Assembly: GCA_905160935.1 (NCBI GenBank)
Contig: CAJHZI010000240.1
Span: 65,001 to 129,000 of the forward strand
Length of the DNA: 64,000 nt
Reading direction: 5' to 3'
From: Enchytraeus crypticus
Taxonomy: Eukaryota > Annelida > Clitellata > Enchytraeida > Enchytraeidae
Program-made: the position numbers and the translations under genes
In this document: one piece after another, positions 6,923 through 48,500 of the stretch
Numbering within the stretch: the first letter of the stretch is position 1
Layout of the letters: each line of letters begins with the position of its first letter
The notes under the pieces: model-generated
Database searches by the model: none
Told to the model about the DNA's origin: nothing
The model's input: only the letters and a program-made list of their open reading frames with translations

Positions 6923-7027
6923 ATTCACATAGAGTTTAGTGACGAGCAGGATAAGGTGACGCTAGAGGGCCCACCTGAGGAAGTAGAGGCCGCCACTGCG
7001 CTTATAATCGCTAAACGAGACGATCTG
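6923..7027 (+). CDS. HDLBP: HDLBP exon A: C-terminal half of KH4
   Basis: This exon gives 35 codons, beginning IHIEFSDEQDKVTLEG and ending RDDL. The acceptor is tttgctgtag and the donor is gtgggt; both ends are phase 0. The IHIEF...DKVTLEGP strand pattern is the last beta strand and helix of a vigilin KH domain. The exon carrying the first half of KH4 is not in the window, so the intron upstream is at least 6.9 kb and holds the retrotransposon cluster. Confidence 0.93.
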
Positions 7028-8169
7028 GTGGGTGTTTTGTGGAAATATTGTGGATATTGAATTTTGTCTTTATTTAACTATTTGTAGTAGTTTAATTTTC
7101 ATCCTTTTCGTCATCGTCCTCTTCCATTTAATCACAGTTTAGCTAGAGTCAAGATACGAATAGATAGTTACACTTCTCTCTATTACAATTTAATATTTTA
7201 ATTTTGTATTTAATATTTTAATCTTAATTCAATTTAAATAGATTTTGAAATTAGAAATAAATAATATCAGCAGCGTATCAGTAGCAGTGTCTGTAGCCTA
7301 GGTGCTCACCAACCAAATGCCCTTTCTAACTTTATTTTGGATCTTAGTGCTTTAGTTGCCTTTTACGACACTTGGCTAGTCTATTCTTCAGTAATGCACG
7401 CACAACACGATGAGTATATTTTAACTATAAAGTTATTAAATAAAATAAGCATAAAGCACCATTGGATAAACTAATACGTAGAATTTAAAATATAATTAAT
7501 CAATATGGAAGTTGAAGACTAATTTGTTTGTTTTTGCTGCAGTTGTCCAAGATGGCTTTTGTAGATCTCAAAATAGATCCTAAGTATCACAGACATATCA
7601 TTGGTAGAGCTGGAGCCAATAGTAAGCTGTTGTTCTTTTCTTATTTTTCGTCTGAAATCTTTTCCTTATCTGTTATTTTTGTGACTTTTTCTTTTCTGTT
7701 TTTGAATATGTTCTCAATCTGTCGTTCTGAGGAGGAACCACTAAGCTTCTGAGCTGGACGCTAAGTTCCTGGACCAAATTAATAAAAGGTAAAATTAAAA
7801 CCTAGTTTAACGTCAGTTTCTGGGCTCGCGAGAATGCCAACGACTTGAACAGCACAGGGTCTGAACTCTGCATGTACTGCGTACTGATTAGAATGTCTAA
7901 ATAGCCTAGGGGTAACGTCATGAAGTTTTAAATGACAAATCCTAAGGTGGCTTGAATCCTCGTGGGTTCGAATCCCGGTCGCGCTGAACTGAGAGTAAAA
8001 TCTCGGACATTCACTGGACTGGTTATACGGAAAATGGTCTAAATTGCCTAACGGATTAAACATGTGGTTTTAAAAGTGATAGATATCAACATAGTTGATT
8101 ATTCACTATAATGCGTGTTTACTTTTTGATCAACTAATAATAATAATAATATTAATAATGATTATGATG

Positions 8170-8202
<33 letters not shown>

Positions 8203-9063
8203 TCTAACAAAAAAATAATATAATATCATCGTCATCTTCCCTTGAATCCCAGTTTAGCCAGGGTCGGGATAGGAATAGACTGTCTCAAATTCTCTAAAAA
8301 ATAGAATAAAATAAACAAAAAAAATCAAATAATAATAGTAATAATAATAATATTTATTATTATTATTACTATTATTATTATAAAGATTTAACGTTCGTTT
8401 CCTCGTTCAAGGATGATGTCAGGGACGTCCCCACAGCACACATCACTACAGATCAATTCGCCCAAACCAATCTGCTAAAGAAATATGCTGAGAAGTAAGA
8501 TCCTAAACGAAAGCCGGTCCAATAGCAACTTACGAACATGATATCTGCTCAGGTTCCGTCGTCGTAATGGACTCAAGCATATTATAAATGTAGAATTCGT
8601 TTGCTATGCCAAACTATGCCAGCCCAGTGATCGTCTTACGATCACTGGGCTGGCATAGTTTGGGATCCGATTTTTGTTCTATGCACGTTTACAAAACATG
8701 CGCACAGAAACATATTGTACAGAACATTTAGTTTGGATTGGCTTGTGGTGTTGCTACAGAATACTCAATAATCTAAACTGGCTTTTGTTCAGGACCTTAC
8801 TTCTTCTCAGCACATATCTTTTGCAGATTGGTCTGGGTGAATTGATCTGTGGTGATGATTGCTGTGGGGACGTGTCTGACATCATCCCTGGATGAGGAAA
8901 CGGACGCTAAACCTTTAATATTAATATTAATATAATTATTATTTTTTATTTTTTTATTATTTATTTATTTATTCATTCATTTTTTTTGTTTTTTTTACCC
9001 CGGTGTAAAGAACCTGGGGTTTGATAAAAACGATTCAAGCAATACGTGCTGAATCGCCGCCCG

Positions 9064-9101
<38 letters not shown>

Positions 9102-12100
9102 CCCAGTTCAGCGCATAAAGCAGGAGACAGGAGTGTCTATTCGCATTCCACCTGACGAGTCCAACAGCAACATTGTGCGCATAGAGGGGGCACCAGAGGG
9201 CGTAGCCAGAGCTAAGTTTGACCTCATCGAAATGATTGAGAAATTTGTAAGTAATCCCACTGTAAATTATCAAGTAGTTTGTAAGTTATCTCACTGTAAA
9301 CTGTCGCCTTTGAACGAGAGGTCACGAGTTCGAGACTGCGTAGCGACGTGGGTTTTTCTCTTCCGAGGGGCGAATAAAATCCTAGTCGTGTACGCTTAGT
9401 GGTGTCAGGCCGATGGATAGCAGACCTTAATGTTCCATTTCCTATCTAGTTACCTCCGTATCGACCCCGAATAGGGATTAACAGCACGCTAAACGGGTAG
9501 TTTTTATTTCTGAGTTAAATTGTAAAATCTTCAATCCGTTAATTAATTCTGGCTCATTGATTGATTGTGTAGTAGTATAACAGGATCACACCACTGTCAT
9601 AGATCATATGTTTTACAAGGCTACCGTAGGCTGGAACCTGTATAAAACATATTGATTAATTGATTGGTCGGTTGATTTCTAGCTGATTGATTGATTAGTT
9701 GATTTACTAATTGACTGATTTATTGATTTAATTGATTTGTTTTTTGATTGACTTATTAATTTATTGATTTGTTGATTATTGATTGATCGGTTGACTGATT
9801 AATTGATGGATAGGCTGATTGATTGATCGATTAATTTATGGGCTGATTGATCGATTGATTGATTAATCGATTGATTGATTGATCGGTTGATTGATCGATT
9901 GATTGATCGGCTGATTGATTGATTGTATAGGATAACGAGAAGAACAGGGACATACTGATCGACCACAGGTTTCACAAGGCCATCATTGGCGCCGGTGGCT
10001 CCAGTATTAAGGAAATACGAGAGAAGTTTCCCCAGGTGGCCATTTCCTTTCCTGACCCTGCCAAACAGAGTGACGTGGTAACGCTGAGAGGACCTAAGCA
10101 AGAAGTAGACGAATGCTATAAACATCTGCAGACGATCGCTCAGAACATGGTTTGTGGAATTATTTCACTGATGTTTTCTTAATATGATAAAAGACATTTT
10201 AATGGTAAGATACTTTTTTGGTAAGATACTTTTTTGGTAGATACTCGACCGCAGATCAGTAGGTGCGGGGTTCAAATCCTGGGCTCGCCCGTCACTAACA
10301 TCGCTTTCGGGTTACGAAACTGACGTTAACCTTAGCTTTACCAGCTTTAATGCCTTTTACTGTTAATGTTTTAATGTCGGCACAAATTTAACAAGCAACC
10401 TAATCATATATAGCAGTAATTAGATTTCATCAATGTTCTTAGTATGTTTGAGGCGAAGTAAGCAAAGCTTAAAAGTAGTAATTAAGTAGGCACATCAGCA
10501 AATTGCTTGACAGGGGATTGGTATATGTAGGGTTCAAATCCCGTGCTATACCGTCAGTAAGAGCTGAAAATTGATGTTTAGCTTGGCTTTAGCCTTTAGA
10601 ATATTTGTGTGTTGGCCTTTCTAAGTTTCTATTTACCTTTATGTCCTAAAGTTAAATTAAATTAAAGTTAAATTGTGTTTAATTGAATTGAAAAGTAATC
10701 CAATGACGTACTCAACGTCTTATGTTACTTTCTTAGACACTTTCTCTTCCTTTCCCCTCACTGGTTAACGGAATGATATATCTCATTGTCCATGGATTTA
10801 CCAGCGCGTCCTCGTAGAACTGCTTGTAGTGGAATATTTCGCTTAAGATGCACCTGACTTACTTTGGAATAATGAACCGCACTTTAAATCATTCACTCAT
10901 CCATCCATCCATTATTTGACCGCGGATCAGTATGTGCAGGGTTCAAATCCTGGGCTCGCCCGTCACTGACATCGCTTTCGAGTGAGGAAACCGACATTAA
11001 CATTAGCGTTTTAACTTTTTTACCATCCATCCGTCAATCCACCCATCAATCCATCCATCAATCCATCCACCAATCAATCAATCGATCGATCAATCAATTC
11101 ATCTGCCCACCCATCCACCTACCAACCCATCCATCCATCACCCATCCATCTAACCTTAACCCTAATCCATCCATCCATCCATACTAGACTGGACGAGTCA
11201 TTTTTGGTTTGTCTAACTATTAAATTGTTTTAAAGATGTTTTATTAAATGATGATCTATTAAAGACATATTATGTGTGACAGGCTGCCAGCAGTCATAAA
11301 GCTGAGGTTCATATTTTCAAGGAGGTTCACAGGAACATCATCGGCAAGGGAGGAGCTAAAATTAGACAGGTAGGCTCACAATAGCTCTCTAGGTAGACCT
11401 ATGATAAGTCTCCAGGTAGGCCTATGCTAGATCTCCTGGTAGGCCTATGATAAGTCTCCAGTAGGCCTATGATATATGTCCAGGTAGGCTTATGATAGGT
11501 CTCCAGGCAGGCTTATGATAGGTATCCAGGAAGGTTTATGATAGGTATCCAGGTAGGCCTATGATAGGTCTCCAGGTAGGCCTATGATAGGTCTCCAGGT
11601 AGGCCTATGATAGGTCTCCAGTAGGCCTATGATAGGTCTCCAGGTAGGCCTATGATAGGTATCCAGGTAGGCTTATGATAGGTATCCAGGTAGGCCTATG
11701 ATAGGTATCCAGGTAGGCCTATGATAGGTCTCCAGGTAGGCCTATGATAGGTCTCCAGTAGGCCTATGATGGGTCTCCAGGTAGGCCTATGAGAGGTATC
11801 CAGGTAGGCCTATGATAGGTCTCCAGGTAGGCCTATGATAGGTATCCAGGTAGGCTTATGATAGGTTTGCAGTAGGCCTATGATATATGTCCAGGTAGGC
11901 CTATGATCTGTCTCTATAGGAACTCTCTCTCTTTATAAGTGCCTTGTCCTTTCTAGACGATGGCGATCATTTTGTTTATTTTTTCTGCTTTTTTGTCTGA
12001 AAAAAACAAAAAAAATATATAATATTTTTGAGTACAGAGTTAAAGTCTTGATTTGAACGTCTTGTGTAATCGTTTAGGTGCTCAACTGTCGACCGCTAGT

Positions 12101-15100
12101 CATTAGGTTCAGAGTTAAATTCTGGTGCTTTACTCCTCACTGACCCGCTTCTTACGATAAGAAAATAGGGTTAAGTTAATTGATTGTTTGATTGATCAAT
12201 TATTGAATTGATTGATTACTATATAATTCATGTTTCCATCATCCTTGGATGAGGAACGGACGTTAAGCCATTATTATTAGTATAAGAGAAAAGACAGCTA
12301 TGGGCTTGTTGAGAAAGATTGAATAAGTGATAGATTGATTATTGAATATAATAGTTGATTGATGGCTAAGAAAAGCTGACAGATACCCAAAGTAACTAAT
12401 CTAAGGAGAAAATTTAATGATTGATTATTTTTAGTTAAATAGTTATATATATTATTTAAGTGATACGAGATACGGAGATATATACGAAGGTGAAATTAAG
12501 GAGAAATATTGATTGATTGATTGATTTATTAAATAATAAATAGGAGAAGCTACAGATAAAAAAGATAGATCTACTTGATTTTCTCGCGTTAGATGTAGAA
12601 ATTGCAGTTGATGCTTTGTTTGTCGTTTATGCGTTTGGTATCTTTGCTGAAAATAGACATATTATTAATTATTGATTGATTTATTAATTAATTATTGATT
12701 GATTGATTAATAGATGGGAAAAGTGACAGGTGCAAAGACAGATCTATCTAAGGAAAAAAATTGATTGATTGACTGATTAATTACTTGATTAATTAGTGTA
12801 TAAGAAAAGTAACTGATGCCGAGATATGTAGATCCATGTAAGGAGAAAGGCTAATTAATAATTGATTGATTAATAGATAAGAGAAGCTACGGATACAAAG
12901 ATAGATCTACCTAAGGAAAACAGCGATAGTGACGTCATCACTATTACAGGGCGTAAGGAGAATGTGGAGAAAGCAAAGAACATGATAGAGGCCATCCAGA
13001 AAGAACTGGTACGTTCAATCTCTCTTTCTCTTTCTTTTTTTGTTCGTATAGTTACACGCATAACATACCGCATGTGCTTACATAGTTTTCCTTTCTTATG
13101 GTTCCTGTTTTTGTAGTTTTCGCTATTTCCTAAGTTCCTCTCCATGGTTATTAGTAATTGTTGCCGCACCAATTTCAGCCGGCGCGGATTTCAGACTAAC
13201 CTTCCAACACCCTCGGGATTTTTTTCTTTCAAAGCTGTCAACACTCGGTCTTCAAAGGTGGTCACCCAAAAAGTACTAACCGGCGCAGTGGAGCTTAACT
13301 TCGTTCAATTGACGCTCAGCTTAACCGAGTGCGCTAAATCCCGCCCTATCTCGTCTTTTTCTCAGCTTACTGATGAACAGTGGGTCCATGGCTTACTCCT
13401 TAAATTAATTTTATCCTCGTCCTGTTATTTGACCTTTCTGCACAAATGTTTTAACAGTTTTTCCGGTATACCGTGTTTCAGTTTTCCCTTTTAATTCTTT
13501 TTAATTCTTTTATTTTTATTCTCTCTTCTATTCGCAATCAAGACCATCTAGTGCAGTGTTTCCCAACCTGCTTAACCCAGCGAACCTGCAGTTTTGGTTC
13601 TATTATGGTTTCAATCTATACAAGAACTTCTGAAAATAAAATTGAATAAAATAAAGTTTTTAATTCCCCGTGTTGTGTCCGGGTTGTGTGAAGAATTAAC
13701 CAACCGGTGACTGCACGTGTCGTAGAAGGCGACTAAAGCACTAGGAGCCACACCAACGTCAGAAGGGCATTCGGTTGGTGAGTGCCTAGGCTCCAGAAAT
13801 TGCTACAAAAATTTAAACGAATGGAAAAGTCTCAAATAGGGGATTGAGTGAATAATGATATGGTATGGGACAGAGAGGATTTGAGACAGTGTATTCGTAT
13901 CCCGACCCTGGTTGAATTTGGATTCAGGGAAGATGGTGATGATTAAAGTAAACGTTTGAATACCAGATCTCTGTATTAATGTGACTAATATACTCTATTG
14001 TGAATAATTATACTCATACTGTCAAGTGTTCATTTCTGCAATGGTAGTGACTGAGTTGTTAGTAATAATAAAACACATTATAGTGAAATTATCAACCAGG
14101 TTGAAATCTATCAGTTTTAATACCACATGTTAAATTCGTTAGGCAATCTAGTCTAATTTCCGTGTAACCAGTCCAGTGAATGTTCGTGATTTAACCCTCA
14201 GATCTGCGCGTCTGGGATTCGAACCCACGAGAGTTCACCTCAGGATCGATCATTTAAAACTTCATGGCGTTACTGACGCCTAAGCACTAGCATTATTGAT
14301 AGATTCTTTGCATTAATGTTAAAATTTGACCACAATAGAGGTGTAACTACGTCTGCTCTGTAAAGAATTATTTTATTCTTAGTACAACATGACATGAGAT
14401 TTGGCTCAGTGATTAAGAGTCTTGTGTTTGGTATTAGATGATCGAGTACATGCGCTCACTATGGAAGCCTGTATGTCTGCAAGTTTCTGTCGTATGCATG
14501 TTGTGTGCATGCCTGTGGATTTGTGTATATATCTGTGTATGTGCGATTGTGCGTGTGTATATTTTGTGTTTTTTATGTGTGGGCGCGCTTGTGTGTACAT
14601 TTGTGTATAAGTGTCTGTATGTGTCTATGTGTGGTTCGTGGTTTGATTTCAGTTTTCTGTGTATTTGTGCGGATGATTATAAACGTTATTCACTTGCCGT
14701 GTCTTGCCGATTTCGCCACAGGCTGGAGCCAGTGGCGAAATCGGCAAGATACTCGATCGCGGTCAGTATGTGCGGGGTTCAAATCCTGGGCTCTCTCGTC
14801 ACTGACTGACTGACTGACTGACTGACTGGAGTGAGGAAACTGACGCTATCCTTAGCTTTTTTTTAGCTTTTATGTTTTATGGCAGGCATTAGATCAAAAG
14901 CAACGGCCAAATCATGGCCATGTGATTTCTTTACTTTTGTTCTCATATTTTGCAATTTTTTACTTTTTCGAAGTTAAGGGTTATGTTTAGGCCCTGTTGT
15001 TAGGGATTTTGGTTAGAGGTTTAATTAGAATGGAATTATGGCTGCATTAATGGAATGAGGGTTAGATTAGATTGGGGTTGGGTAAATAAGCAATCTAACG

Positions 15101-18100
15101 GTTGTTTCTATCTAATACCTTCACATTTTATGTAGTCCATGTCCTCTTTATGGCAAAGTGTGATCCTCTTTATGACAAAATCTTATCCTCTTTATGACAA
15201 AATCTTATCCTCTTTATGACAAAATCTTATCCTCTTTGTGACAAAGTCTTATCCTTTTTATGACAAAGTCTGATCCTCTTTATGACAAAATCTGATCACT
15301 CAAACCTCCGTGTCACTTGAACGTTTAAATGGTACTTGTTGAAAATTTACCGTCCGGTTCCGTATCGAAGTCTAAAATGTTAGAGACCTCTGTAGCGGAA
15401 TATTTCTACGTTATCCTTCTCATCGTAGCTGTGACTCGATGAACTGTTTGATGTCTATCTCTGCAATGTGGTGACTGGTGCAGTGACTGCTTTATTCGAT
15501 GTTGATGTTTATCTCTGCAATGTGGTGACTGGTGCAGTGACTGCTTTATTCGATGTTGATGTTTTTCTCTGCAATGTGGTGACTGGTGCAGTGACTGCTT
15601 TATTCGATGTTGATGTTTATCTCTGCAATGTGGTGACTGGTGCAGTGACTGCTTTATTCGATGTTGATGTTTATCTCTGCAATGTGGTGACTGGTGCAGT
15701 GACTGCTTTATTCGATGAATCTGAATGAAGCTGAATCCGTATGGTGTAGTAACACTCTGGTAACTGTTTGTTGACGTTATGTCTGTATATAACTGAATCT
15801 GTATAGTGTGATAACACGGTGGTAACGGTTTAATGACTATATTTCTTATAAGATTGCGATTGCTGAATTCCTTTTTAATGATTCATTATACGAAGATATA
15901 CTAACCTCTATTTTATCTAGAGCCTAGTTTAGTTTAACTAGAACTTAGTCTAGTTTAACTAGAGCTAGTCTAGTTTAACTAGAGCTAGTCTAGTTTAACT
16001 AGAGCCTAGTCTAGTTTAACTGTAGATTAGTCTAGTTTAACTAGAGCCTAGTCTAGTTTAACTAGAGCCTAGTCTTGATTAACTAGAGCCTAGTCTAGTT
16101 TAACTGTAGATTAGTCTAGCTTAACCTGGACTAGTATAGTGTTAGTATGTTATTACTATCATATGGCTTAGTATATTAGTTTAGTATAGTCTAAATTAAC
16201 TCTGGAAAAACTGCGTAAAGCAATGTCGGCGAAATTTCAAACCTTCCTACTGATTGATGCTAGTACTATTTGTTTAGTCGACGTCGAATCGTTGATTATT
16301 ATTATTGTCAGTTGTTGAATATAAAGGCATTAAATTTTCAGTCTGTTTTCAGACTACCACTGATTTTCAGGGATGATTCACATGGGATTTGATCACCCAC
16401 ATCGGTTTTGATTTAGTTCCATAGTGCTCGATGTTGTCATGGATAACAGTAGCACTCTAATCGTTTTGTTGTTGTTGTTGATATATCGTAGTTTCCTGCT
16501 GTTGAATTAGTTAACACCCGTTTTTACCTCGTCGGCGTAAAATAAAGGAACACGGTGCTTAAATTTTACGATATTCTTTCAGCATCGCGTTCCTTACTAT
16601 ACGTAGACTAATGTAAAGGTTATATTGTGGTAGATACCATGCTACCATCTCCCGTCGCTAATAGAGTCTAAGGGACTGCTAGCGATTAATTAATGGCGAT
16701 TAATAATTGTTTCATTAACTTGCTTGTAGGTTAAAATGTAAGAAATAACCGCATAATTATATGACGTACGGCTACCAATATGTAGCTGATAGGTTCTAAA
16801 GTGTGTCTAAAATTTGTTTTATTGATTACTTGAATAATTTGATGAGTGTATGATTGATTAATTAAACGAAAGAATTAATTCATGATTGAGTGTTTGGCTG
16901 TTTGATTGATTAACTGATTGATTGTCTAAATGATCGATTGACTCATTTATTATTTAAAATTGTGATCTTCTGATTGGCTGATTGATTAATTGATTTATTA
17001 ATTGTTTAAATGATCAATTGGCTGTTTATTATTATTTTGATCACGTAACTGGTTGTTTTATCAGCCTATTTATTCACTGATTAATTATTTAAAGGACTTA
17101 TTAGCTGATTTATTAATTGATATTTTGATCATCTGACTGATTGATCGTAGGCTAACATAAAGGAGATAACTATAGAGATACCCTACGACTATCACACGTC
17201 GCTGATTGGCTCAAAGGGACGCCTGATAAGAGCTGTGATGGAGGAGTGCGGAGGGGTCATCATTCGCTTTCCAGGCGAGAACCTCAAGAGTGACAAGGTC
17301 GTTATACGTGGACCTAAAGACGACGTCGAGAAGGCGAAGAAGCATCTCCTGGAAATGGCTGATCAGAGGGTATGGTTTCCTTATTGAATTTCTGATTAGG
17401 CAATCACTCGATCGATCAATCAATCGGTTAATATATCAATCATTAGATCAATCTATTAATCAGTCAATAAGTTACTCATTCAATCGGTTAATATATCAAT
17501 CAATCAGTTAATCAGTCAATAAGTTCATCACTCAATCAATTAGTTAATCAATCAGTTAATCAATTAATCAGTCAATAAGTTAATCACTCAATCAATTAGT
17601 TAATCAATCAATCAATCAATTAATCAGTCAATAAGTTCATCACTCAATCAATTAGTTAATCAATCAGTTAATCAATCAATCAATCAATCAGTTAATCAAT
17701 CAATCAATCAGTTAATCAGTCAGTTAATCAATCAGTTAATAAATCAGTTAACCAATCACTAAACTAATTTTGTCGCGAAATTTAAACTGTAATTCAGTTC
17801 TATGCCATTTGTTGTTCTGATTATTATAATTATAATTGTTTTGTTATTTGAAATAACATTAATACACTGATTATTATTATTATTATTATAATTATTATAA
17901 CTATAATAATAATTATTATTTTTGTTATTAATATTATCATTAGTACTGTGAATATTATTATTGTTGTTGTTAATATTATTATTACTATAATATTAGTAAT
18001 AATAATATTATTAATAATCATTATAAAAATAATATTATTAATAATAAAAACTTTCTATAACTTTGCAAGGATTTAATGCAATCTACTTCAGCAATTCTTT

Positions 18101-18208
18101 TAAGCAGCTAGGCGGCGATTCAGCACGTGCATGTGTATTGCTCGAATCTTTTTTATCAAACCTCGGGTTCTTTACACCCGGAGTAAAGAAAATGATATTA
18201 ATTATTAC

Positions 18209-18257
<49 letters not shown>

Positions 18258-21200
18258 GGTTATATAGAAAGAGTCTAGCTATACGGAGGAAGTCCGCACT
18301 AAGCCAGAGTTTCACGGATTCCTGATCGGCAAGAAGGGTTCCAGTATCCGAGGTATCCGCGAGCAGACTGGAGCGAGGATTATCTTTCCATCTGCCAAGG
18401 ACCAGGATCAGGACCTCATCACTATCGTCGGCACCAAGGAGGCCGTCCAGCAAGCCAAGAAGGATCTGGAGGCGAAGATAAAGGACTTGGTCTGTAGCTT
18501 GATGTTATAATTACAATACTCTTACAATTTAGAGTATTTGTCTTATCTTTATTTTAGATCTTTTAGTGCTCTTTTCAGTAACTGATAATTTTTCAAAGTT
18601 TATTTATTGATTGGCAGGAGAACGTAAATGGAAGAGGAAATGGACGTTAAGGCCTAGCATATGTTACATTTCTTTCGCAGATTGGTCTGGGTGAATTGAT
18701 CTGTAGCGATATGTGCTGTTGGGGACGTCCCTGACATCATCCCTGGATGAGGAAACGGACGTTAAGGCCGAGCATATGATTGATCATTTCACTATAATGC
18801 GTGTTATTCATTAATATTATTATTACAATAATAAGACACTGGTGTTGTTTATTAATATCTGATAATTTTTCAAAGTTGATTGATTGATTGATTGGCAGGA
18901 GAATGTGGTAGAAGAGGAGATGGAGGTGGAGGTGAAGCACCACAAGCACTTCACAGCAAGGCGTGGTGAGACTCTTCAGCAGATCAGTCAGGACTGCGGG
19001 GGCGTGGTCATCAGCTTTCCCCGCCCATCGTCCGGCAGCAGCAAGGTCACGCTGAAGGGCGCCAAGGAGTGCATCGAGGCGGCGAGGAAGCGTGTCCTAG
19101 AGATCATCACTGACATCGTACGTGCCTGTCAATCAATCTACTCGTTGTCTGTCATTAGCCAATCTCACCTGTCAATCAATCTACTCGTTATCTGTCAATC
19201 AGCCAATCTCACTGGTGTACCTGTCAATCAATCTACTCGTTATCTGTCAATCAGCCAAACTCACTGGTGTACCTGTCAATCAATCTACTCGCTATCTGTC
19301 AATCAGCCAAACTCACTGGTGTACCTGTCAATCAGTCTACTCGCTATCTGTCAATCATCTCACTGATGTACCTGTCAATTAATCTACTCGCTATCTGTCA
19401 ATTAGCCAATCTCACTGATGTACATGTCAATCAGTCTAACCATCAGTTATTAGCCATAAATTAAAGTATCTGTCAATTATTATATTCATTATCCATCAAT
19501 TAATCAACCCATATAAAGTACCAGCCAATCAATCTATAATTTAGCAATAAATCAATCCCACTGAAGTACCTCTCTATCCATCAATTCGATAACAATCAAT
19601 CATTTCCAATGAAGCATCTCTCAACCAATCAGTGCATAATCTATCAAATATTCAACCACAGTGTATATTGGTCATGCTTTAGGTTGTTTGATAAAAGAAG
19701 AATTATTACAGAATCTTGTTTTACCGCTTAAATGGTTTTTGCCTGTTATGTACCAAAATTTACTTCAGTGTTGAATAACTTAATCTTAGCGACGGTAGCT
19801 CGAGTGTGACGAGTCGTCTTTAAGAGAAGCCTTGTGCTTCTGAACCCTGATGTTAAGTAATCACAGGACAACCTATCCATCAGCAATTTACATTTATAGT
19901 GATGTGGAAAAATATTCTTACATTTTCATTGCAAAATATGTTTTTATACTAATTACCCGCTGAGTATTAAACAGATAATTTTAAATTGTCCTCTCTTTTA
20001 GTGCACTGCCTACTGGCAGATCCGTGATATATAAAATTGTCTATAAGCTAAATCTAACGTTAAGTTTAGCGTCGGTTTCCTGCTCGATAGCATTAGCTAA
20101 CATTAGCTCGACGGTAATATTGGCTTTATATGTATGATCTTTATTTCACCAAAATACATGATAGTATAAACAGAACAAGAAATGAAAAATAATGAACGAA
20201 CAGAACAACAGAAACCACGGATTACCCATCAAAGAGTCTGCAAATAAAGAAATTTAAACTAAAATCGCCGTTTATCTTAGGATCGGCTTTCAATAATCTA
20301 ATTAGGTCAATATACCTTCGAAATAAGTCCAAACTTTATATCTTATTTTGCCAATAGTGTCATCGCTCTGAATTGAATATTTATTTTTAATATTAACATA
20401 ATCCATATAATCAGACTTATCTAAATGTAGTTTACTATCCAAGGATTCAGAGTCAATTAGCTTATGTAAGAAATTATATCTATGATACTGATAGAGTAGC
20501 TCAAACCTTTACCTGTGCTGTGGTACAATAGGAGAACCAGGTGACGATAGAGTACGTTGTACCCGCCAAGCTTCACGGCAGTATCATGGGACCCAAGGGC
20601 TCTCGTATACAGGACATCACTAGGGAGCACAATGTGCAGGTCAAGTTTCCGGATAGAAAACCTGCAGAGGGTAGGATTTCATTTGATCTATTTACATAGC
20701 ATGACCTATTTACATAGCATGACCTATTTACATAGCGTGACCTATTTACATAGCGTGACCTATTTATATGATGACTTATTTATTAAATATCTTTCTTGAC
20801 TTACTAGCCGTTGCCTTCCACAGTTCTATAAAAGATTAACTGCCATATTAATCCTGGTGGATACGAATTCAAAATCAAAATACTTCACTAATATAATTCT
20901 AAAATTCTTCACTTATAGCACTTATATGTATGTTTCGTTTGCAGATAAGTTCAGCGTAGGAGTGAGATTGCCCACTTTTTATCGTTTAGTATCTCTATTT
21001 GTTCATCACAGCACAGATTATACAAACAATAGGAACGTGCATGTAGTTAGATAAACAAATAACAATACTAAAGAGGCTACCATAAAAAAGCCATAGCTCT
21101 GTTCGGTAATACCATAATTAGTAGCTATGGCAGAATCTACTTGAGTTTGAAATACAAATAAATTCTATTACATTACCAAGTACTGTAAAAACGTTGGTAG

Positions 21201-26576: not shown

Positions 26577-26643
<67 letters not shown>

Positions 26644-31859: not shown

Positions 31860-32041
31860 TCAGTTGATAGCGACATTTAAGACTATCGCAGCAATGCTGA
31901 CAGCACCGTGCTGAATATAAGAATGGATGGACACTGAGTTACTGGATAGCAGGCTAAGGTCCTTGGATTCAGCCATCAGTTCATCGGAAGCACGATCCAG
32001 GTTCCTCCAGGATTGTGGAGAGCCTGGGATATCCTTGGGTA
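31860..32041 (-). CDS. CAP/ShK gene last exon 6: linker and hydrophobic C-terminus
   Basis: Two bases plus 59 codons and TGA. A polar Ser-rich linker (SKDLSLLSSNSVS) leads to a roughly 16-residue hydrophobic end (GAVSIAAIVLNVAIN). The acceptor is gtacttcag. The end could be a GPI-attachment signal or a tail anchor; there is no cytoplasmic basic stretch. Confidence 0.75.
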
Positions 32042-33201
32042 CTGAAGTACAAATCAATCATTGGTATAATCAATCTATCAATCAATCAGTAACATAAATA
32101 ATCAATCAATAGATTCCACAGTTTAGGATCTTTTTCTTTCTCTTTAGCACATGTTTTTTCAGCTGGTTTGGAGTGAATCGATTTGTGGTAACATGTGATG
32201 GGGGGACCTGACATCAAGCTTGTATGAGGAAACGGCCGTTAAACCTTTATTATTATTATTCTTATAAATTTATAATCTATTAATTAAAATAGATCATAGC
32301 ACAGAAATTATTTATCACTGAATGAATCGCTAAATACATTGACTAATGCACTGATAGATGGATTGATCGATTGATTTTCTGTTGGCTTTCCTTCCTATTG
32401 ATAGAATGATTGATGGTTGAATCGATTGATCAAATACTTAATTCATTGATTTATGAATTGGTTTATGTGATTGATTGGTTGATTGAATACTTGATGGACT
32501 GATTGACTAATTGATTGATTGCTTGATTGATTGATTGATTGCTTGATTGATTGATTGACTGATTGATTGATCGATTGAGACCTACCACAGTTACCACATG
32601 TTACGGGGCACACTGTCAGTGCCTCTGAGCTAGCACAGCCATTTTGCTCATACAGCCTGTCACAGATCTCTCTATTAACATCCCTACACTCAACTGTAAT
32701 CAATCAATCAATCAATCAATCAATCTAACAACAAGTGAGAGAACCATGTTCTTTTATTTGTAACTAAATCCAAATATACACAAATAGCACACAACGAGAC
32801 AGAATACAAATAAAACGGCCGCCAGAAAGAGCACAATTTAGCTCTATCTAGCTGGCTACCAGAAACACGGAAACATAGCAACATAAGATCGTAGAAAAAT
32901 TGAAGATAGTAAACATAAATAATGAAAATAGCATTGTACTGCAAAGAGCAACACATTACGGATCATCTAAAGCAGAAACAAATCAATAATCGTCATCTTC
33001 CTCTGAATCCTAGTTTAAATACTGTAGGATCGGGCTAAGAAAAGACCTCCAATTCTCTCTGTTTCACACCACACTACCGGTCAATCCCCCAATTTCCATT
33101 CGTTGTAACAAAAAAATGTCGCAATTTCTAGACCCAAGGAACATACTCAAACAAGCAATTAATCTTAATTATTGCGAAGATTATAGTAGTACGGTATGTC
33201 C

Positions 33202-33298
<97 letters not shown>

Positions 33299-36033: not shown

Positions 36034-36064
<31 letters not shown>

Positions 36065-37573
36065 TTGATTGATTGATAGATTGGTTGATTGAATGATTGA
36101 TTAAATAATTTATTGATTGACCGATCGATTGATTGATTGACTGTTGGATTGATTGATTGATTAATTGATTGATTGATTGCTCACCCACACACAGAGAGTC
36201 GTTGTAACAGAAAGGCGTCCTCAGGTCACAATCACTGCAGGGCCAGCCTCGCCTATAGGGCGTCCTCTTGTTGTCTGCAATCCTATCACAAAACGTCAAT
36301 AAAAATCTCCGTCTAGGGTTCTGCCAAGTGGCAGGTCCTCCTTCAAATCAACAGCAGTACACGTACAAAACATTTATAAAAATCTCCGTCTATGGTTCAG
36401 CCAATTGACAGGTCTTCCTTCCAATCAACAACAGCATAATCAACAGAAGTACACAATATTAATAAAAAATAGCTGTCTAGTGTTTTGCCAGCTATAGGCT
36501 ACATAAGGTATGGTAAGGCATATACTTTTTGAAGGGATAAACTTTTTGATCTAGGGAGTAAAAGCTGTTAAAGCTAAGCTTAAAGTCAATTTCCTAACTC
36601 GAAAGCGATGTCAGTGACGGGCGAGCCCAGGATTTGAACCCCGCACATACTGATCCGCGGTCGAGTATCTTAACGACTTCGCCACTGGTTCCAGCCTATT
36701 ACAACGCTGCTTTCTTCAATGATAAAATCGAGCAATGTTGAACGAAATTCAATTCATCTATCAAAAGCAATTGTTTTCAAAAAATTCACAATAATATGTC
36801 CAAAACCAGTCCAAAGAGATGATGGAGCACAAGAGATTTCTCGAAATTTGTGAATTTTTTGAGATAAAGACAAAAGTAAATCTTTAAATAAATATATCAT
36901 CATAAATCGTTTGAAAACTTGCCTTGTATCGAACAGACAGGTGATGAGGCGGTATTTAGCTGAAGAAGGAGTTGGGCTAATTTTCGCGTTACCGCACAAT
37001 ATTTGACTGCAGCCAACACGCGAACTACTCGCCAATACAATCTACAAGTTAAATGTAAGTTAATAATAGTTAATAATAGTTAATTAAATAATAATTAGTT
37101 AATACTAGTTCATCAATTATATAATAAACTCAAAATCCTCATCAAAAGCATAACCCACAAGAAGGAATGGTAAATCACGACGCTCTTAAATGGATGAAGC
37201 ATGGACCGAAAGGAAGGAAGATACCCGAAAACTAGAGGCATTGGAAATGTAGATTTGAAGAAGAATGGAGAGGATTAGTTGGACTCAAAAGGCTACAAAT
37301 GAGGAAGTTCTAGAGAGAGTTGGCACAGATAGACAGTTGATAAATGTATTAAGAAATAGGAAGAAGAGTTGGATAGGACATATTCTAAGGGAGAAGTCTA
37401 CTAAACGAGATTACAGATAACAGAATGGAAGGAAATAGACGCAGAGGCAGGCCGAGATTAGGTATGTTAAGTGATTTAAAACCCACTCATATGTGGACAT
37501 GAAGAGGATGGCGGAAGACAGAGAAGAATGGAGGCGTTATATACCAAGGACCTACCAGTAGGCAGAGCAATAC

Positions 37574-37614
<41 letters not shown>

Positions 37615-39235
37615 AAACGACGAAATTAGGTTAGTCTGTTTTTTTCAACTTAAGAACCTACGGACAAGACATAGTTCGATGGAATGGTGTTTAATAGCAC
37701 GCAACTTACGTCAGTTATGTTGCGCGCTATGTACAAAACGTTAATTCTAATTGCATTATTATAAATATATTCATTAGGCTTTTCATTATATTTCTTTTAT
37801 TCATTATATACATTATATAGGCCTACGATATATCAATTAATATTAATTATATTCCATTCATTAAGCCTAATATTCATTATAATTATCCGTTATATTTATT
37901 TAATCATTTAATTTTATATGCTATTAGTTGAGATTTTAAACTAATCATATTAAAATCAATAGAACATTGTTTATTTATTTTGTTCATTTTCGTTGATTTA
38001 AGGATTCATTAAGTTCATGGTGGACTGATTAATAATTTGCTGGTTTCATTTTTCCCTGAGTACTTGATAGACAAATTGGCTCACACAATGTTATTTCGAC
38101 CGATCAACTTATTAAGTGACTGAGTATAATTTAATTCATTAATTTAATTATTGATTAACTGACTGACTGATAGACTGACTGACGACTGACTGATTGACAG
38201 ACTAACAGACCGACTAAAAGCTAAGGTTAACGTCAGGTTCCTCACTAGAAAGCGATGTCAGTAACGGGCGAATCCAGGATTTGAACCTCGAACATAATGA
38301 TACGCGGTCAAATATCTTACCTACATTGCCACTGGCTCCAGCTCCAGGTGCAGGGTTCAAATCCACCGCTTTATCAAGCAGGAAGCAGACTTTATAAACT
38401 TGGCCTGAGCATTTAAAGCTAAAAAGCTAAGTTTAACGTCAGTTTCCTCACTCGAAAGCGATTTGAAGATAAAGAACCTGTTTATAAGCAGCACAGGAAG
38501 GGTTCTCGGGGTTACACATCAGAACATGCTGCTTCTCCACACCCCATTCCCTCATAGCTCTTCTTATCAACAGCTCGTGGTTATCAGTGTCCTTATCAGT
38601 AACGTTATCAGTTAAAGCGATATCCGACTGATAAGATAGTCGGCCGAGGTCTTGACTATTGTAGCGCTCTGATGTCAGCTGAACATTGGAGATTGCGGAG
38701 AAGTCCTTTCTGCAGGTTTGAGCCCAGGCTGAGGTAGTCTCTTCCAAATCGTGGTCCCAATCCTAACATCAACAGAAACAATGACAATAATAACAATAAT
38801 AAAACTCCACTAATGGCAACAACTACCTAATAATTTCTTTAGACTACGATGTCTGAAGAAAATAATAACGACAAAAAAGCAATAGCAACAACAACAAAAT
38901 AACTACTAATTAGCTACTGGAGCAAAGTATAATAATAATAATAACAAAAATAAAAATAATAAATATATTTATTAATCGCCGCTTTGTGCTATATTTCACA
39001 GTAGCGCTGAATGGACGGTGAAGGTCAAGAACAGTGAAGGTCAAATCTCTCTCCATTTAATTCCTATTTTTTTCAAGATATTCATCATCGTTATCCAAAC
39101 AATCCTGTCAAAGGCCTTCTCAAAATCTACAAAGCATACAAAAACGTCATTTCAATATTTTAAGCTTCTTTCGCTATGAACCCGCATTAACCCTATTGCT
39201 TTTCTTGTGCCGCATACTATAAAATAAATATAAAG

Positions 39236-39286
<51 letters not shown>

Positions 39287-39445
39287 TAGTGTTCTGCCTA
39301 CTAGCAGGTCCATGGTATATAACGCCTCCACTCTTCTCTGTCTTCCACTTTCCTTCTCTTCATGTCCACATATGAGTGGGTCTTTAAAATATACATACCT
39401 AACATACCTAATCTCGGCCTGCTTCTGTCTCTGCCCTATATATAT

Positions 39446-39485
<40 letters not shown>

Positions 39486-40177
39486 ATGCCTACGTAAGTC
39501 CGTTTACCATTCATTGGTTGAGTCAGTAGCACGTCAGGACCTATTCGACTGAGGATCACTATAGGTGCAACGTGCAGGATTCAAATCCAGTAAGCGCGTC
39601 CCGTCTTTGGCATGCCTCTTACAAGACAGGGAAACTAGGACATTGATCTCGTCTTATGACTTTATCATTTTATCATCTTTAATTCAAGTATTGCAACTCT
39701 AAATCGTATTCAGTCTATTCGTGTCCCGGCCCTAGTCAACTAGGATTTAAGGGAAGAAGAAGAAGAAAAAAAAAGAAGAAAATGATGATGATGATGATTA
39801 AGATGATGATGATGATGATGATGAAGATGATGATGATGATGATGATGACGATAGTGGTGACGGCGATGATGACGATGACGATGACGATGATGAAGATGAT
39901 GACAATGATGATGATGTTGATTGCAACTCTAATTTTACGCATAGTCACTAACAGTAAAACTCTTCAGTAATTGCATTACCAGTCGTCTCATGTCGGAGGC
40001 GTGCATGGAAGAACGTTCCAGGTTGAAAGCTTCCAGCAGCGTCCATCTCCAGCTGTTCGTGACGTCATCAGCCATCACGTGACTTGTGGTTTGTGACGTC
40101 ACAATGGCGCCGCTAAGCAACAAGTGTACAAGCAGTATCTGCTGATAGCTCGTCTCGTCGAGGGTAGGCTTGACCAT
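31860..40177 (-). CDS. Secreted CAP (CRISP/PI15-like) protein with ShK domain, 6 exons
   Basis: Exons on the minus strand: 40177-39980, 38762-38478, 37041-36923, 36282-36185, 32693-32586, 32041-31860. All phases agree and give 329 aa. Order: a signal-like hydrophobic stretch (about 14-28, ILLVHLLLSGAIVTS); CAP domain (about 46-200: WDHDL, AWAQTC, REWGVE, SSSRVGC); a short Cys-rich hinge like that of CRISPs (PYRRGWPCSDC, about 209-232); a ShK domain (ECRDVNREIC...CPVTCGNC, 235-269); and a Ser-rich linker ending in a hydrophobic C-terminus (SIAAIVLNVAIN). CAP proteins are secreted and bind lipids or other proteins; no enzyme activity is implied. The usual CAP histidines and the GEN motif are missing. 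The C-terminal tail could be a GPI-anchor signal (inference). Most similar by eye to PI15/GLIPR/CRISP proteins; the exact family member is not assigned. Confidence 0.88.
32586..32693 (-). CDS. CAP/ShK gene exon 5: ShK domain
   Basis: Two bases, 35 codons and one base, carrying six cysteines in ShK order: ECRDVNREIC, then NGCASS, then CPVTCGNC. ShK domains are small disulfide folds found in many secreted animal proteins. The acceptor gattacag follows (GATT)n and the donor G|gtaggt is followed by AATC repeats. Confidence 0.9.
33490..33750 (-). mobile_element. S2 SINE, inverted
   Basis: A well-preserved copy including the 5' head (gataacgtcatgaag reversed) and ctgggattcgaacccacgag; sense to the CAP/ShK gene, in intron 4. 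Confidence 0.78.
34240..34535 (+). mobile_element. RTE-like retrotransposon C-terminal fragment
   Basis: Broken frames give ERVTTDRQIINVLRNRKRVG-like and GRGRPRLGMLHDLKIHSYVD + MKRNTDDREEWRRYG, the usual C-terminal end of RTE-type polyproteins (linker, then basic GRPR box). Confidence 0.65.
35715..35805 (+). mobile_element. SINE S1, 3' half
   Basis: Begins at box B (aaatcctgggctcgaccgtc) and ends ttagctttaaaagtttt. Confidence 0.65.
36185..36282 (-). CDS. CAP/ShK gene exon 4: Cys-rich hinge
   Basis: One base, 32 codons and one base, with PYRRGWPCSDCDLRTPFC then YNDSLCV. This matches the short cysteine hinge after the CAP domain in CRISP and PI15 proteins. The donor G|gtgagc is followed at once by AATC repeats on the sense strand. 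Confidence 0.87.
36560..36705 (-). mobile_element. SINE S1, inverted, in CAP/ShK intron 3
   Basis: A full copy: actcgaaagcgatgtcagtg, ggcgagcccaggatttgaac, ctgatccgcggtcgagtatc, acttcgccactggttccagc. Confidence 0.78.
36923..37041 (-). CDS. CAP/ShK gene exon 3: end of CAP domain
   Basis: This exon gives 39 codons plus two bases: IVLASSSRVGCSQILCG matches the CAP strand usually written VVWxxSxxVGC, and YRLITCLF matches the final strand YLVCNY. The acceptor is aacttgtag. The donor is AAG|gcaagt, a consensus GC donor. Phase 2 joins exon 4 to make Arg. Confidence 0.85.
37230..37605 (+). mobile_element. RTE-like retrotransposon C-terminal fragment, longer copy
   Basis: Broken frames give LERVGTDRQLINVLRNRKKS + WIGHILR and THMWT/HSYVDMKRMAEDREEWRR + YIPRTYQ. 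It ends in (GA)n at 37584-37612. Antisense to the CAP/ShK gene, between exons 2 and 3. Confidence 0.72.
38216..38345 (-). mobile_element. SINE S1, inverted, in CAP/ShK intron 2
   Basis: A full, diverged copy: tcactagaaagcgatgtcag, gcgaatccaggatttgaacc, acattgccactggctccagc. Confidence 0.75.
38415..38463 (-). mobile_element. SINE S1 3' fragment abutting a splice donor
   Basis: Contains taagtttaacgtcagtttcc and tcactcgaaagcgat, ending about 9 bases from the donor of CAP/ShK exon 2. Confidence 0.65.
38478..38762 (-). CDS. CAP/ShK gene exon 2: CAP core
   Basis: This exon gives 95 codons: DWDHDLEETTSAWAQTC is the CAP helix 2 signature, then MREWGVE and NPENPSCAAYKQ. The acceptor is gatgttag. The donor CAG|gttctt is weak, and a truncated SINE begins about 15 bases downstream of it. 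Confidence 0.88.
39285..39435 (-). mobile_element. RTE-like 3' fragment
   Basis: Contains gcctactagcaggtccatgg, ccactcttctctgtcttcca and catgtccacatatgagtggg, the reverse complement of the end of the 37230-37605 copy. Confidence 0.7.
39480..39979. other. CAP/ShK intron 1, exon 1 side: simple repeats
   Basis: Unique sequence, an R1 3' end (39715-39775), then (GAT)n to 39920. No exon is needed here because phases of exons 1 and 2 match. Confidence 0.6.
39980..40177 (-). CDS. CAP/ShK gene exon 1: signal region and CAP start
   Basis: This exon gives 66 codons from ATG. The hydrophobic stretch starts only after about 13 residues, long for a signal peptide n-region. LLEAFNLERS aligns with the usual CAP opening in which HN replaces FN; SDMRRL ends the exon. 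The donor is CTG|gtaatg, phase 0. Confidence 0.85.
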
Positions 40178-40289: not shown

Positions 40290-40299
40290 TAATAATAAT

Positions 40300-42586: not shown

Positions 42587-42631
<45 letters not shown>

Positions 42632-45115: not shown

Positions 45116-45299
45116 GTAACAATGAAATTTCAATGTCAAAATTTCATTAAAGTTATGGCAAGTCAAGAGGGCAGCATATAATTTAAAATTAGCTAATAAT
45201 AAAATAGCATGTATATACTATAGCTCTGAAAACGACTGATGTAAGACTGAAATCTGTAAAGATTCTGTCATCTCGATTGCCAATGAACAAATCTTTGAC

Positions 45300-45435
45300 C
45301 TACTGTAACAGTAGTATTGCACTGAATATTATTATAGTAGTATTACACTGAATATTATTATAGTAGTATTGCACTGAATATTATTATAGTAGTATTGCAT
45401 TGAATATTATTATAGTAGTATTGCACTCAATATTA
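45300..45435 (+). repeat. 26-bp tandem repeat upstream of MFSD9
   Basis: About five units of agtagtattgcactgaatat + tattat. It ends 80 bp before the MFSD9 start codon, so it may lie in the promoter or 5' UTR. Confidence 0.85.
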
Positions 45436-45512
45436 TTAGAAGATAGAAGTCTTTGCCAATTTTCACTGTGGATCCTTACACCAATAGAAGGCTGAGATAA
45501 AGCGCTTCAGCC

Positions 45513-45563
45513 ATGCCATCTAGTAAAGCTGTTGTCTGCATGGTGCACCTCGTTGGATTCCTG
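45513..45563 (+). CDS. MFSD9: MFSD9 exon 1: start and first helix start
   Basis: This exon gives 17 codons, MPSSKAVVCMVHLVGFL. The donor is CTG|gtttgt. The later gtaagt at 45579 looks stronger but would put a stop in frame at the next exon, so phase and family sequence (LVGFL|DLFGV) choose the earlier site. Confidence 0.8.
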
Positions 45564-48500
45564 GTTTGTTATTTTACTTGTAAGTTGCTTTTGGATTTTT
45601 ACTTGATATTTTTTTTAGCAAAAGGACAGTGTTTCTGGATGATAGAAAGGAACTGAAAGACCATCTAAGATGTGCTATTGTAACAAGTTATTTATCTCTA
45701 TTGAAACTGTAAATGCATGGTCAATGGGTCATTAACTAGATGAACATTTTAGGAAATTTAGCTGTTCAGGCTGGTATTAGTATAATTTAACTCTTTATTT
45801 AGTGCAGATCCTGGCACTCTGATTGCGATGGCGACAGTTTACTGAAAGCATGCGAGTTAATATACTAATATATGTAATAATTGAAAAGTTTGTAAATATA
45901 TATTAAGGTTTTATTTTGATAGAGCTGGTAAAAGCTTATGTTAACGTCAGTTTCCTTACTCGAAAGTGATGTCAGTAACGGATGAGCCAGGATTTGAACC
46001 CTGCACATACTGGTCTGCAGTCGAATATCTTACCGACATCACCACTGGCTTCAGCCAGTGTCAATTGATATACCATTTCGGCAATAGGCACTAGTTATGC
46101 TGTATTGTAAGTTATTGTATTGCATAGGATTTATTTGGAGTCAGCATGATAATACCTCTACTCTCAAAGCACTATAAGGACATGGGAACTTCAGCCACTG
46201 CCATGGGTTTAATTAGTAAGTCTAATTAATACTACCTGTTGGCTCCATTTTAAGTTTACAGTAATGTTTAGAGAGAATTTTTTTTAAAGATTACTTTTCA
46301 TTGTGTTCATTAAGTACCGGTGCTGTACAACTTCACAGGGTTTGTGCAAAATCTGCAGGGGTTAAAAATTTTCATAAACTAGTAACATTGAAAGCAGTAA
46401 ATATTAGAGTACTTAATAACAGTATGGTTATTAATAGATATATCTGTTAAATTTATTAGTATTTATACGATAGTATTACTGTATCATCTTCATCTTCCAT
46501 TGAATTGAGTCTCAGTTTAACTAGGGTCAGAATTTGAAAATTGTGCAGCAATTTTCTAGATTTTCTAGAATTTCTAGGGTTCTAGATTTTCTTGAGTTTC
46601 GATGAACACCTCATTTAAGTAATGAACTAAAAAGTTAATATTACAGTTAAGTATTAAAAGAGTTTTAAATGCTGAGAATTTTCATAGCTTACAAGCATAC
46701 TTATTTTTTATGAAAAAGTACCTTTTTTATTTGAAAACTTTCCTTAAAAATATTACTTTATGAAGAATATAAAAATTAATTTAAGTAAATTAATTTTCAT
46801 GTGAATGAGCAACCGATCCATTGTCGAATTCCCTATGATTCATAGATAGATTGATTTGTTTATTTAGTGACTGATTGATTGATTTATGGATTTAGTGAAT
46901 GACTATAAATTGATTGATTAATTTTTGTTTGATTGATCAATTGATGGATTGGTTGTTTGATTTGATCGATTGATGGATTTGTTAATTTCATGAATGATTT
47001 ATAAATTTCTTGACTTTTGTTCGATCGATTAATTAATGGATTTGTTGTTTGATTTGATTGATTGATTGTTATATTAAGGTTCACTCTATGGAGCTATTCA
47101 GCTATTCTCTGGACCTGTAGTGGTTTGTACTTTTTATTCTTATATAATTTTAAAATTTTATATCTTTTTGTCCTATTTGTTTGATTATTTCTTTTTTGTT
47201 CTATTTGTTATTTTTACACTTGTTGTGTCCAGGCTACTGAAGAATAGACCATTCGTGGACCCCACGTGTCGTAAAAGGCGAAAAGCACCAAGATCCAAAC
47301 TAACGTCAGAAAGGGCTTTAGATTGTTGAGTGCCTTGGCTCCAGAAAGTTATATAGAATTGCTTAATCCTGATGATAGTTAAACTGGTATTCAAGAGAAG
47401 ATGATGAGTATGATGATAATGATGATAATGATGGTGATGATGATGATATTGATTAATTGTAGGGTCGCTGGTCAGATAGATCAGGAAGAAAGTTTGTTCT
47501 GCTGAGTTGTCTAGTTCTTTCTTCCGTCAGCTACCTCATGCTTGGTGCCACCAACACTGTCGTCATACTGCTCATATCTAGGATCATTGCTGGTCAGTTG
47601 TACTACTGTACTGCTCATATCTAGGATCATTGCAGGTCAGTTGTACTGCTGTACTGCTCATATCTAGGATCATTGCTGGTCAGTTGTACTGTTGTACTGC
47701 TCATGTCTAGAATCATTGCTGGTCAGTTGTACTGCTCATGTCTAAGATCATTGCAGGTCAGTTGTACTGCTGTACTGCTAATATTTAGGATCATTGCAGG
47801 TCAGTTGTACTGCTGTACTGCTCATATTTAGGATCATTGCAGGTCAGTTGTACTGCTGTACTGCTAATATCTATGATCATTGCTGGTCAGTTGTACTGCT
47901 GTACTGCTAATATCTAAGATCATTGCAGGTCAGTTGTACTGCTGTACTGCTCATATCTAGGATCATTGCAGGTCAGTTGTACTGCTGTATTGCTCATATT
48001 TAGGATCATTGCAGGTCTGTTGTACTACTGTACTGCTCATATCTAGGTTCATTGCTGGTCTGTTGTACTACTGTACTGCTCATATCTACTGCTCATATCT
48101 ACTGCTCATATCATAATTAGCTAGTTATTCAAAACATTATAGATGATGTTATTATTCTCATCACTATAATTCCTTGCAATTCAGAGACGTCTGACAAGCC
48201 AATGTCAGGGACGTCATTGCCTTATAATAAATATAATAAAGGTTTGAAGTCCGTTTCCACATATAACGATAATGTCAGGGACGTCCCCATCACTTGGTCA
48301 TTGCTGGTCAGTTGTACTGCTGTACTGCTAATATCTAGAATCATTGCTGGTCAGTTGTACAGCTGTACTGCTCATATCTAAGATCATTGCTGGTCAGTTG
48401 TACTACTGTACTGCTCATATTTAGGATCATTGCAGGTCAGTTGTACTGCTGTACTGCTCATGTCTAAGATCATTGCCGGTCAGTTGTACTACTGTACTGC

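Follow-up and report, generated by a model that had tools for sequence, protein, structure and literature searches.

GATT repeat arrays before splice acceptors in Enchytraeus crypticus and their putative role as branch sites

Why should one strand of a simple repeat lie before splice acceptors, and its complement after splice donors, in genes on both strands? This question is raised by a stretch of 64,000 nucleotides of the Enchytraeus crypticus genome (contig CAJHZI010000240.1, positions 65,001 to 129,000; hereafter the window), in which an earlier note described GATT-type runs just before acceptors and AATC-type runs just after donors of three genes, namely HDLBP (vigilin), an MFSD9-like transporter gene, and a gene for a CAP-domain/ShK-like secreted protein (CAP/ShK). 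The placement of GATT arrays before acceptors, their polarity and their genome-wide extent are real. Judging from the sequence, we think it fairly probable that these arrays are branch-site arrays that were enlarged by tandem duplication across splice junctions.

Polarity of the arrays in the window and in the genome

Open frames, splice signals, phase, and the order of the KH domains served to place the exons, and the concatenated reading frames are intact for all three genes, which together have 23 complete introns in the window (22 GT-AG and one GC-AG). Arrays were called with a wrap-around aligner, which found 21 GATT and 9 AATC arrays on the + strand, against zero in five first-order Markov simulations. 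In sense orientation 26 arrays are intronic, 19 of them GATT and 7 AATC (19 and 6 in the per-intron run). Within 35 nt of a splice site, acceptors have eight GATT arrays and no AATC array, and donors have three AATC arrays and no GATT array (Table 1). These 11 abutting arrays of the expected polarity compare with a random mean of 0.79, and 11 was reached in none of 20,000 independent placements and none of 3779 rotations. Seven of the eight acceptor GATT arrays end 3–10 nt from the exon, and the eighth, in CAP/ShK intron 6, stops 26 nt short of it. GATT arrays also lie later in the intron than AATC arrays (p = 0.0017).

When exact 8-mers were counted in the terminal 200 nt of the intron (or half intron), GATT was found on the acceptor side of 10 of the 23 introns (seven in HDLBP, one in MFSD9, and two in CAP/ShK), the same numbers per gene as were listed before, the letter names used there for exons not being matched singly. 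AATC was found on the donor side of six (HDLBP 6, 8, and 11; CAP/ShK 4 and 6; MFSD9 4), two of which span merely 10–11 nt. Both placements thus bear out the earlier note, which had also seen no case of the reverse. This last statement holds within 35 nt. It fails within 200 nt, where there are 12 GATT and one AATC array at acceptors and three AATC and one GATT array at donors, the last starting 165 nt after the HDLBP exon 10 donor. By 8-mers the reverse amounts to AATC on the acceptor side of one intron (11 nt) and GATT on the donor side of three (8, 30, and 8 nt). A long GATT array at 27019–27277, just past the HDLBP stop codon, is probably in the 3′ untranslated region, with no splice site.

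Pattern scans covered the 524 Mb assembly that contains the window (802 contigs) on both strands, so that the GATT and AATC patterns see identical arrays. The pattern (TGAT)6 occurs 11,348 times, and the same pattern read backwards 259 times. An acceptor-like T[AG]CAGG lies 0–6 nt after (GATT)3 in 1013 cases and after (AATC)3 in 71, while (AATC)3 lies 0–10 nt after a donor-like GGT[AG]AG in 284 cases and (GATT)3 in 141, so that the reverse also occurs genome-wide. These counts include overlapping registers and cassette copies (see below); the 71 AATC matches represent 62 distinct ends by hand count, and the 1013 are unreduced. Chance levels, which are rough because they derive from few matches (array density in ten stretches at near or random places, and the (TGAT)6 ratio), are 102–178 for the acceptor pattern on either strand and 129–224 for the donor pattern. 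Against these levels, GATT before acceptors is 6–10 times enriched and AATC before acceptors is below chance, while AATC after donors is 1.3–2.2 times enriched and GATT after donors is about at chance. The predicted genome-wide polarity is therefore strong at acceptors and weak at donors. With the looser contrast of any YAG after the repeat, the polarity is much weaker (9650 for (GATT)4 and 7032 for (AATC)4); many of the listed (AATC)4-YAG matches arise from CAG variants inside arrays, for which reason T[AG]CAGG was used as the stricter pair. A scrambled control run for the GATT acceptor pattern, T[AG]GGAC after (GATT)3, gave 238 matches, which is above chance, though it includes TAG/GAC, and the true non-acceptor TGGGAC makes up just 6 of about 100 listed rows by eye. 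Nine arbitrary 10-kb stretches held three arrays scoring at least 16; arrays were thus rare in them, and the window and the sampled loci described next are therefore array-rich places.

Open frames beside arrays were examined in 28 loci picked from the listed (TGAT)6 matches without regard to splice signals, all on low-numbered contigs and thus not genome-random, from which 46 of 52 array clusters were kept (six were dropped for short flanks); L014 and L016, from a YAG-selected list, were excluded. Sense frames preceded by GATT matched 19 Pfam families, including Kelch (three times), kinase (twice), Ets, BTB, dynein heavy chain, ion channel, PAS, and MAP1B, and about 14 of 38 such frames had Pfam support (read from the family counts; 12 without the two weakest families). 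Pfam support was present for 0 of 16 frames preceded by AATC, for 2 of 37 followed by AATC, and for 3 of 17 followed by GATT. Two of the last three are exons of L013, each standing before a short intron that is filled by a single array as far as the next acceptor, and the third is in L017, about 50 nt from its donor. L013 yields several matches, and its BTB exon and one Kelch exon, which have a GATT array on either side, were counted in both the acceptor and the GATT-after-donor classes. At 32 of 44 arrays, read on the GATT strand, the 3′ flank was richer in GC than the 5′ flank. At the eight loci not chosen by YAG, a YAG followed the array on the GATT strand in 34 of 44 cases and on the AATC strand in 17 of 44 (p = 0.0005, the cassette arrays being non-independent). 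Donor-like motifs within 25 nt had no polarity, either in the sampled loci (2/44 before AATC and 4/44 before GATT) or in the window (2/24 and 3/24). In the donor sample, three Pfam families were matched among the 16 short open reading frames scanned (of 20). The BTB/Kelch gene of L013 (3150–9830) has GATT or AATC arrays at several exon edges, some of its exons being flanked by both repeats and some of its short introns being filled by a single array.

The complementarity of the two repeats invites two explanations by pairing. The earlier note proposed that donor AATC pairs with the acceptor GATT of the same intron and joins the splice sites, for which the polarity is suitable and the AC/GT repeats of fish and lamprey offer a published precedent (PMC7404189). 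Introns with both repeats do exist, namely CAP/ShK intron 6 and HDLBP intron 11 (the AATC of the latter just 11 nt); 2 of 23 is nevertheless the chance level (2.6 expected). Moreover, the own-end duplexes of 150-nt ends, with a mean energy of −36.9, are weaker than those with the acceptors of other introns (−41.2; permutation p = 0.93, within genes 0.89), and genome-wide the acceptor arrays are far more polar than the donor arrays. We regard such pairing as very unlikely. Equally improbable, in our judgment, is that upstream GATT and downstream AATC loop out the exon between them, leading to circular RNA or skipping. Exons flanked by both repeats occur in L013, L015, and L041, and 4 of 22 window exons have both by hand count against 2.45 expected, but this excess is non-significant (p = 0.15), the mean flanking duplex energy is no better than permuted (p = 0.39), and a GATT array lies within 420 nt upstream at just 4 of 20 sampled AATC-followed donors.

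A putative branch-site role of the GATT strand

The branch-site consensus of animals is yTnAy (yUnAy in RNA), and the branch site usually lies in the AG-free zone before the acceptor. The units TTGAT and CTGAT/CTGAC fit this consensus, and the resemblance to branch-point motifs noticed previously extends to position. The AG-free zone upstream of the eight array acceptors is 21–181 nt long, and 70 of the 71 yTnAy motifs in it are inside the array; by the AG-free-zone rule, the branch site is expected within the array. Each unit of (GATT)n would give UUGAU (or the variants CUGAU and CUGAC), which matches yUnAy, and a pure array has no AG, so that a run may offer many equivalent branch sites in succession, with no AG between them and the splice site. 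The array would thus replace the usual branch site and pyrimidine tract, typically to 3–10 nt from the AG; the anatomy is observed, and we infer the use. Such a role is possible for the GATT strand alone, and AATC is accordingly rare at acceptors, presumably through selection against it. At donors the repeat would have no such job, and AATC may be tolerated or mildly favoured; GATT is near chance there, possibly because at the start of an intron it would be a decoy branch region. A different branch-like tandem motif, a repeated unit with TTAAC, is found at 37058–37125 (− strand), 16 nt before the CAP/ShK exon 3 acceptor.

The polarity might also be a by-product of composition, T-rich repeats persisting near acceptors because the region is T-rich, with branch motifs irrelevant. 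Repeat-masked acceptor ends are indeed T-richer than intron middles (40% vs 35%), and (ATT)n arrays likewise abut the acceptors of HDLBP exons 2 and 7. However, masked donor ends are nearly as T-rich (39%), yet GATT is unenriched there, and the window acceptors abutted by GATT number eight against two for (ATT)n, so we hold this explanation to be unlikely. The two (ATT)n runs lie at 9064–9101 and 18196–18257, respectively 5 and 10 nt before their acceptors.

Cassettes and tandem repeats across splice junctions

In HDLBP intron 10 the arrays are part of a larger unit that crosses the end of the intron. The last of three cassette units has the real acceptor, and copies of the start of exon 11 (at 22553) lie 264 nt upstream (1 mismatch in 24) and 136 nt upstream (0 mismatches in 24). 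In 15 of 39 sampled acceptor-like clusters, the 30 nt that follow the YAG recur upstream once or more (at most 7 mismatches, counted without a shuffled control); the copies are about 38–67 nt long, and one of the 15 clusters is a donor-side mirror. At HDLBP exon 11 and in these 15 clusters the copies of the exon edge indicate that a unit crossing the junction, (GATT)n-AG-exon start, was multiplied. The Glu-tRNA synthetase-like L017 has six units before its tRNA-synt_1c exon, counting the real one and one that lost its AG; the kinase-like exon of L015 is preceded by seven, again counting the real one, and L018 has up to about eight. In the donor mirror of L013, exon-end copies are separated by AATC arrays. 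Pure GATT has a stop codon every 12 nt, in all frames, and so the use of an upstream cassette acceptor would yield an early stop; pure AATC is open and reads NQSI.

Tandem repeats of other kinds behave similarly at the junctions. In the window, 24-mers of 3 of 46 exon edges are copied in the intron, compared with 0 of 100 exon-internal probes, and 13 of 45 tandem repeats other than GATT (the CAATCAATC minisatellite at 19125 being counted among the 45) lie within 25 nt of a junction, where 2.2 would be expected and none of 5000 placements gave as many. Repeats in HDLBP introns 4, 12, and 13 and in MFSD9 intron 3 carry the splice motif itself, the last with 20 junction copies at the 24-mer level. 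If tandem duplication frequently extends over splice junctions, this would explain why arrays accumulate at exon edges. For the cassettes, a GATT-like word in the exon may pair with the array, whereupon exon start, array and AG would be duplicated upstream; the copies are there to be seen, and the slippage is conjectural. Break points at such words are exemplified by ATTGA, at which the exon part of the L017 cassette ends, and by GTGAT in L018. A 16-bp repeat, TGGTAAGATACTTTTT (2.8 copies, 10203–10245), with a donor-like GGTAAGAT, lies 53 nt past the weak donor of HDLBP exon 3.

These duplications also suit a process at the DNA level without any role in splicing, in which exon edges are the starting points of tandem duplication and of microsatellite growth, the polarity being fixed (AATC outward, on both strands), and splicing merely tolerates the result. 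The rule is symmetric about exons, cassettes occur together with mirror-image donor cassettes, and many unrelated repeats also abut junctions. Strand symmetry, however, predicts equal polarity at both edges, while the ratios found are 14 to 1 at acceptors and 2 to 1 at donors; in addition, the GATT arrays mostly stop 3–10 nt from the AG and contain almost every branch motif in the AG-free zone. This process therefore seems to us rather unlikely as the explanation, somewhat less so than a compositional by-product.

Several points weigh against the branch-site reading that we prefer. The case for branch-site use is one of motif and AG-free distance. Thirteen acceptors of the window have no listed GATT end, and 11 of them carry 0–2 yTnAy motifs in the last 57 nt, so that many motifs are not required by the consensus rule. 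The arrays are impure, the AG-free zone of HDLBP intron 9 being 28 nt of a 277-nt array. In a crude test of the window, which looked for a YAG no more than 13 nt from where the array stops, the strands were equal (11/24 vs 11/24). The enrichment of AATC at donors, given above, is without a mechanism of its own in the model. Finally, the break points at exon words are examples seen without control, and that of HDLBP intron 10 shares at most one base.

A wider proposal, which we put forward tentatively as a possibility somewhat short of even, is that of a microsatellite-coded 3′ splice site, in which, across hundreds to thousands of introns, UUGAU units have replaced the branch site and pyrimidine tract, and the unit of (GATT)n, AG and exon start multiplies via GATT words of the exon, so that acceptors seed their own expansion. 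If this is true, slippage would have varied the number of branch sites and the AG-free length in hundreds of introns or more, which would form a natural series. Such a series would allow tests of how the spliceosome chooses among equal branch sites and near-identical acceptors, of the need for a pyrimidine tract, and of junctions as seeds of tandem duplication and intron growth.

Genes of the window and comparison with known systems

Features of the window are collected in Table 1. For HDLBP, additional 5′ exons were not found within the window. Vigilin chains of the PDB match a 267-residue part of the protein, for which no relatives were confirmed in the genome-contig and viral-contig collections. 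The gene with the MFS_1 domain is presumably MFSD9, a name taken from the earlier note. The EGF/ShK parts of the CAP/ShK protein were assigned by eye alone. Intron 3 of this gene (36283–36922, − strand) is the GC-AG intron, with a strong donor (AAG/GCAAGT). Open frames resembling remnants of a LINE reverse transcriptase were seen by eye at 1633–6091 and 43181–45083, and Rfam at gathering thresholds gave no match in the window.

Table 1. Arrays, other tandem repeats and genes of the window (positions from the first letter of the window; GATT and AATC in sense orientation).
Feature	Position	Strand	Basis
GATT array, ends 5 nt before HDLBP exon 3 acceptor	9651..9925	+	array caller
Two GATT arrays in last 213 nt of HDLBP intron 4, nearer one 82 nt from acceptor	12664..12794	+	
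GATT array, ends 136 nt before HDLBP exon 6 acceptor	16814..17014	+	array caller
GATT array, ends 4 nt before HDLBP exon 8 acceptor	18876..18894	+	array caller
GATT array, ends 3 nt before HDLBP exon 10 acceptor	21650..21926	+	array caller
Cassette array, HDLBP intron 10, three units of (GATT)n-AG-exon 11 start	22240..22621	+	TRF period 128; sequence
GATT array, ends 4 nt before HDLBP exon 12 acceptor	23610..23892	+	array caller
GATT array, ends 10 nt before acceptor of second MFSD9 exon found	46836..47068	+	array caller
GATT array, ends 4 nt before CAP/ShK exon 6 acceptor	32698..32725	-	array caller
GATT array, ends 26 nt before CAP/ShK exon 7 acceptor	32068..32110	-	array caller
AATC array, starts 32 nt into intron after HDLBP exon 6	17401..17758	+	array caller
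52-bp minisatellite with CAATCAATC, 7 nt past HDLBP exon 8 donor; not called as AATC array	19125..19438	+	
Short AATC run (11 nt exact 8-mer coverage) after HDLBP exon 11 donor	22816..22827	+	
AATC array, starts 6 nt into intron after CAP/ShK exon 4	35954..36179	-	array caller
AATC array, starts 8 nt into intron after CAP/ShK exon 6	32397..32578	-	array caller
Exception: acceptor-side AATC/ATCC-type array, ends 184 nt before HDLBP exon 4	11034..11098	+	array caller
23-bp minisatellite, 24 copies, begins in last exon bases, repeats HDLBP exon 4 donor (CAGGTAGGC)	11367..11914	+	
19-bp minisatellite, 16 copies, repeats HDLBP exon 12 donor region (GAAATGGTAG)	24119..24428	+	
40-bp minisatellite, 12 copies, unit contains HDLBP exon 14 acceptor sequence (TTGTTCTACAGCTGCAGGAC)	25905..26375	+	
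43-bp minisatellite, 27 copies, overlaps donor of third MFSD9 exon found	47566..48703	+	
HDLBP/vigilin gene, 14 exons, 13 complete introns	7543..26943	+	intact spliced frame; Pfam KH_1 (10 stretches) and KH_Vigilin
MFSD9-like transporter gene, 5 exons, 4 complete introns	46128..50267	+	intact frame; Pfam MFS_1 E=1.8e-37
CAP-domain/ShK-like secreted protein gene, 7 exons, 6 introns	31860..40177	-	intact frame; Pfam CAP E=1.9e-6

A literature search, judged by titles and abstract openings and with subscription journals mostly outside its coverage, gave no account of GATT arrays at acceptors. Among known systems, the tail of a SINE or MITE can supply the sequence before an acceptor AG, which may hold for the (ATT)n runs that precede HDLBP exons 2 and 7. 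By eye, the flanks of both runs resemble a dispersed element that recurs in the window, as if the tail of the element were the acceptor tract. In a search for the shared sequence that introners or transposon-derived introns would leave at their ends, the masked intron ends gave 26 cross matches, and among the 25 listed none comes from the acceptor ends of HDLBP 2, 9, 10, and 11, MFSD9 1, or CAP/ShK 5, so that among these matches six of the eight array acceptors are without a shared flanking element. Dispersed repeats common to other introns are found at the acceptor ends of HDLBP 7 and CAP/ShK 6 and at several other ends.

Three further systems are compared here. In the (AC)m-(GT)n introns of fish and lamprey, a class also marked by independence of U2AF2 in splicing, AC- and GU-rich elements lie at the boundaries of a subset of introns (Lin et al., via PMC7404189), and the repeats of the window likewise concentrate at intron boundaries (11 abutting vs 0.8 expected); here, however, the unit is another one and matches the branch site, the arrays are usually at one end, and own-end pairing is not above chance. 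The multiplied splice sites also recall the dual-specific sites of UBC, where tandem repeats contain sites with an AGGT core that serve as 5′ and 3′ sites alike (PMC10809524), whereas the copies described here are intronic and, by eye, the acceptor copies have no evident donor of their own. The cassettes remind us of the intron gain in the potato RdRp gene by tandem duplication across an intron-exon boundary (PMC4974935), where, as here, a stretch spanning the acceptor was duplicated together with its branch site (putative in our case), AG and exon start; unlike there, the duplication is iterated here, giving up to about eight units in L018, each of which has its own GATT array.

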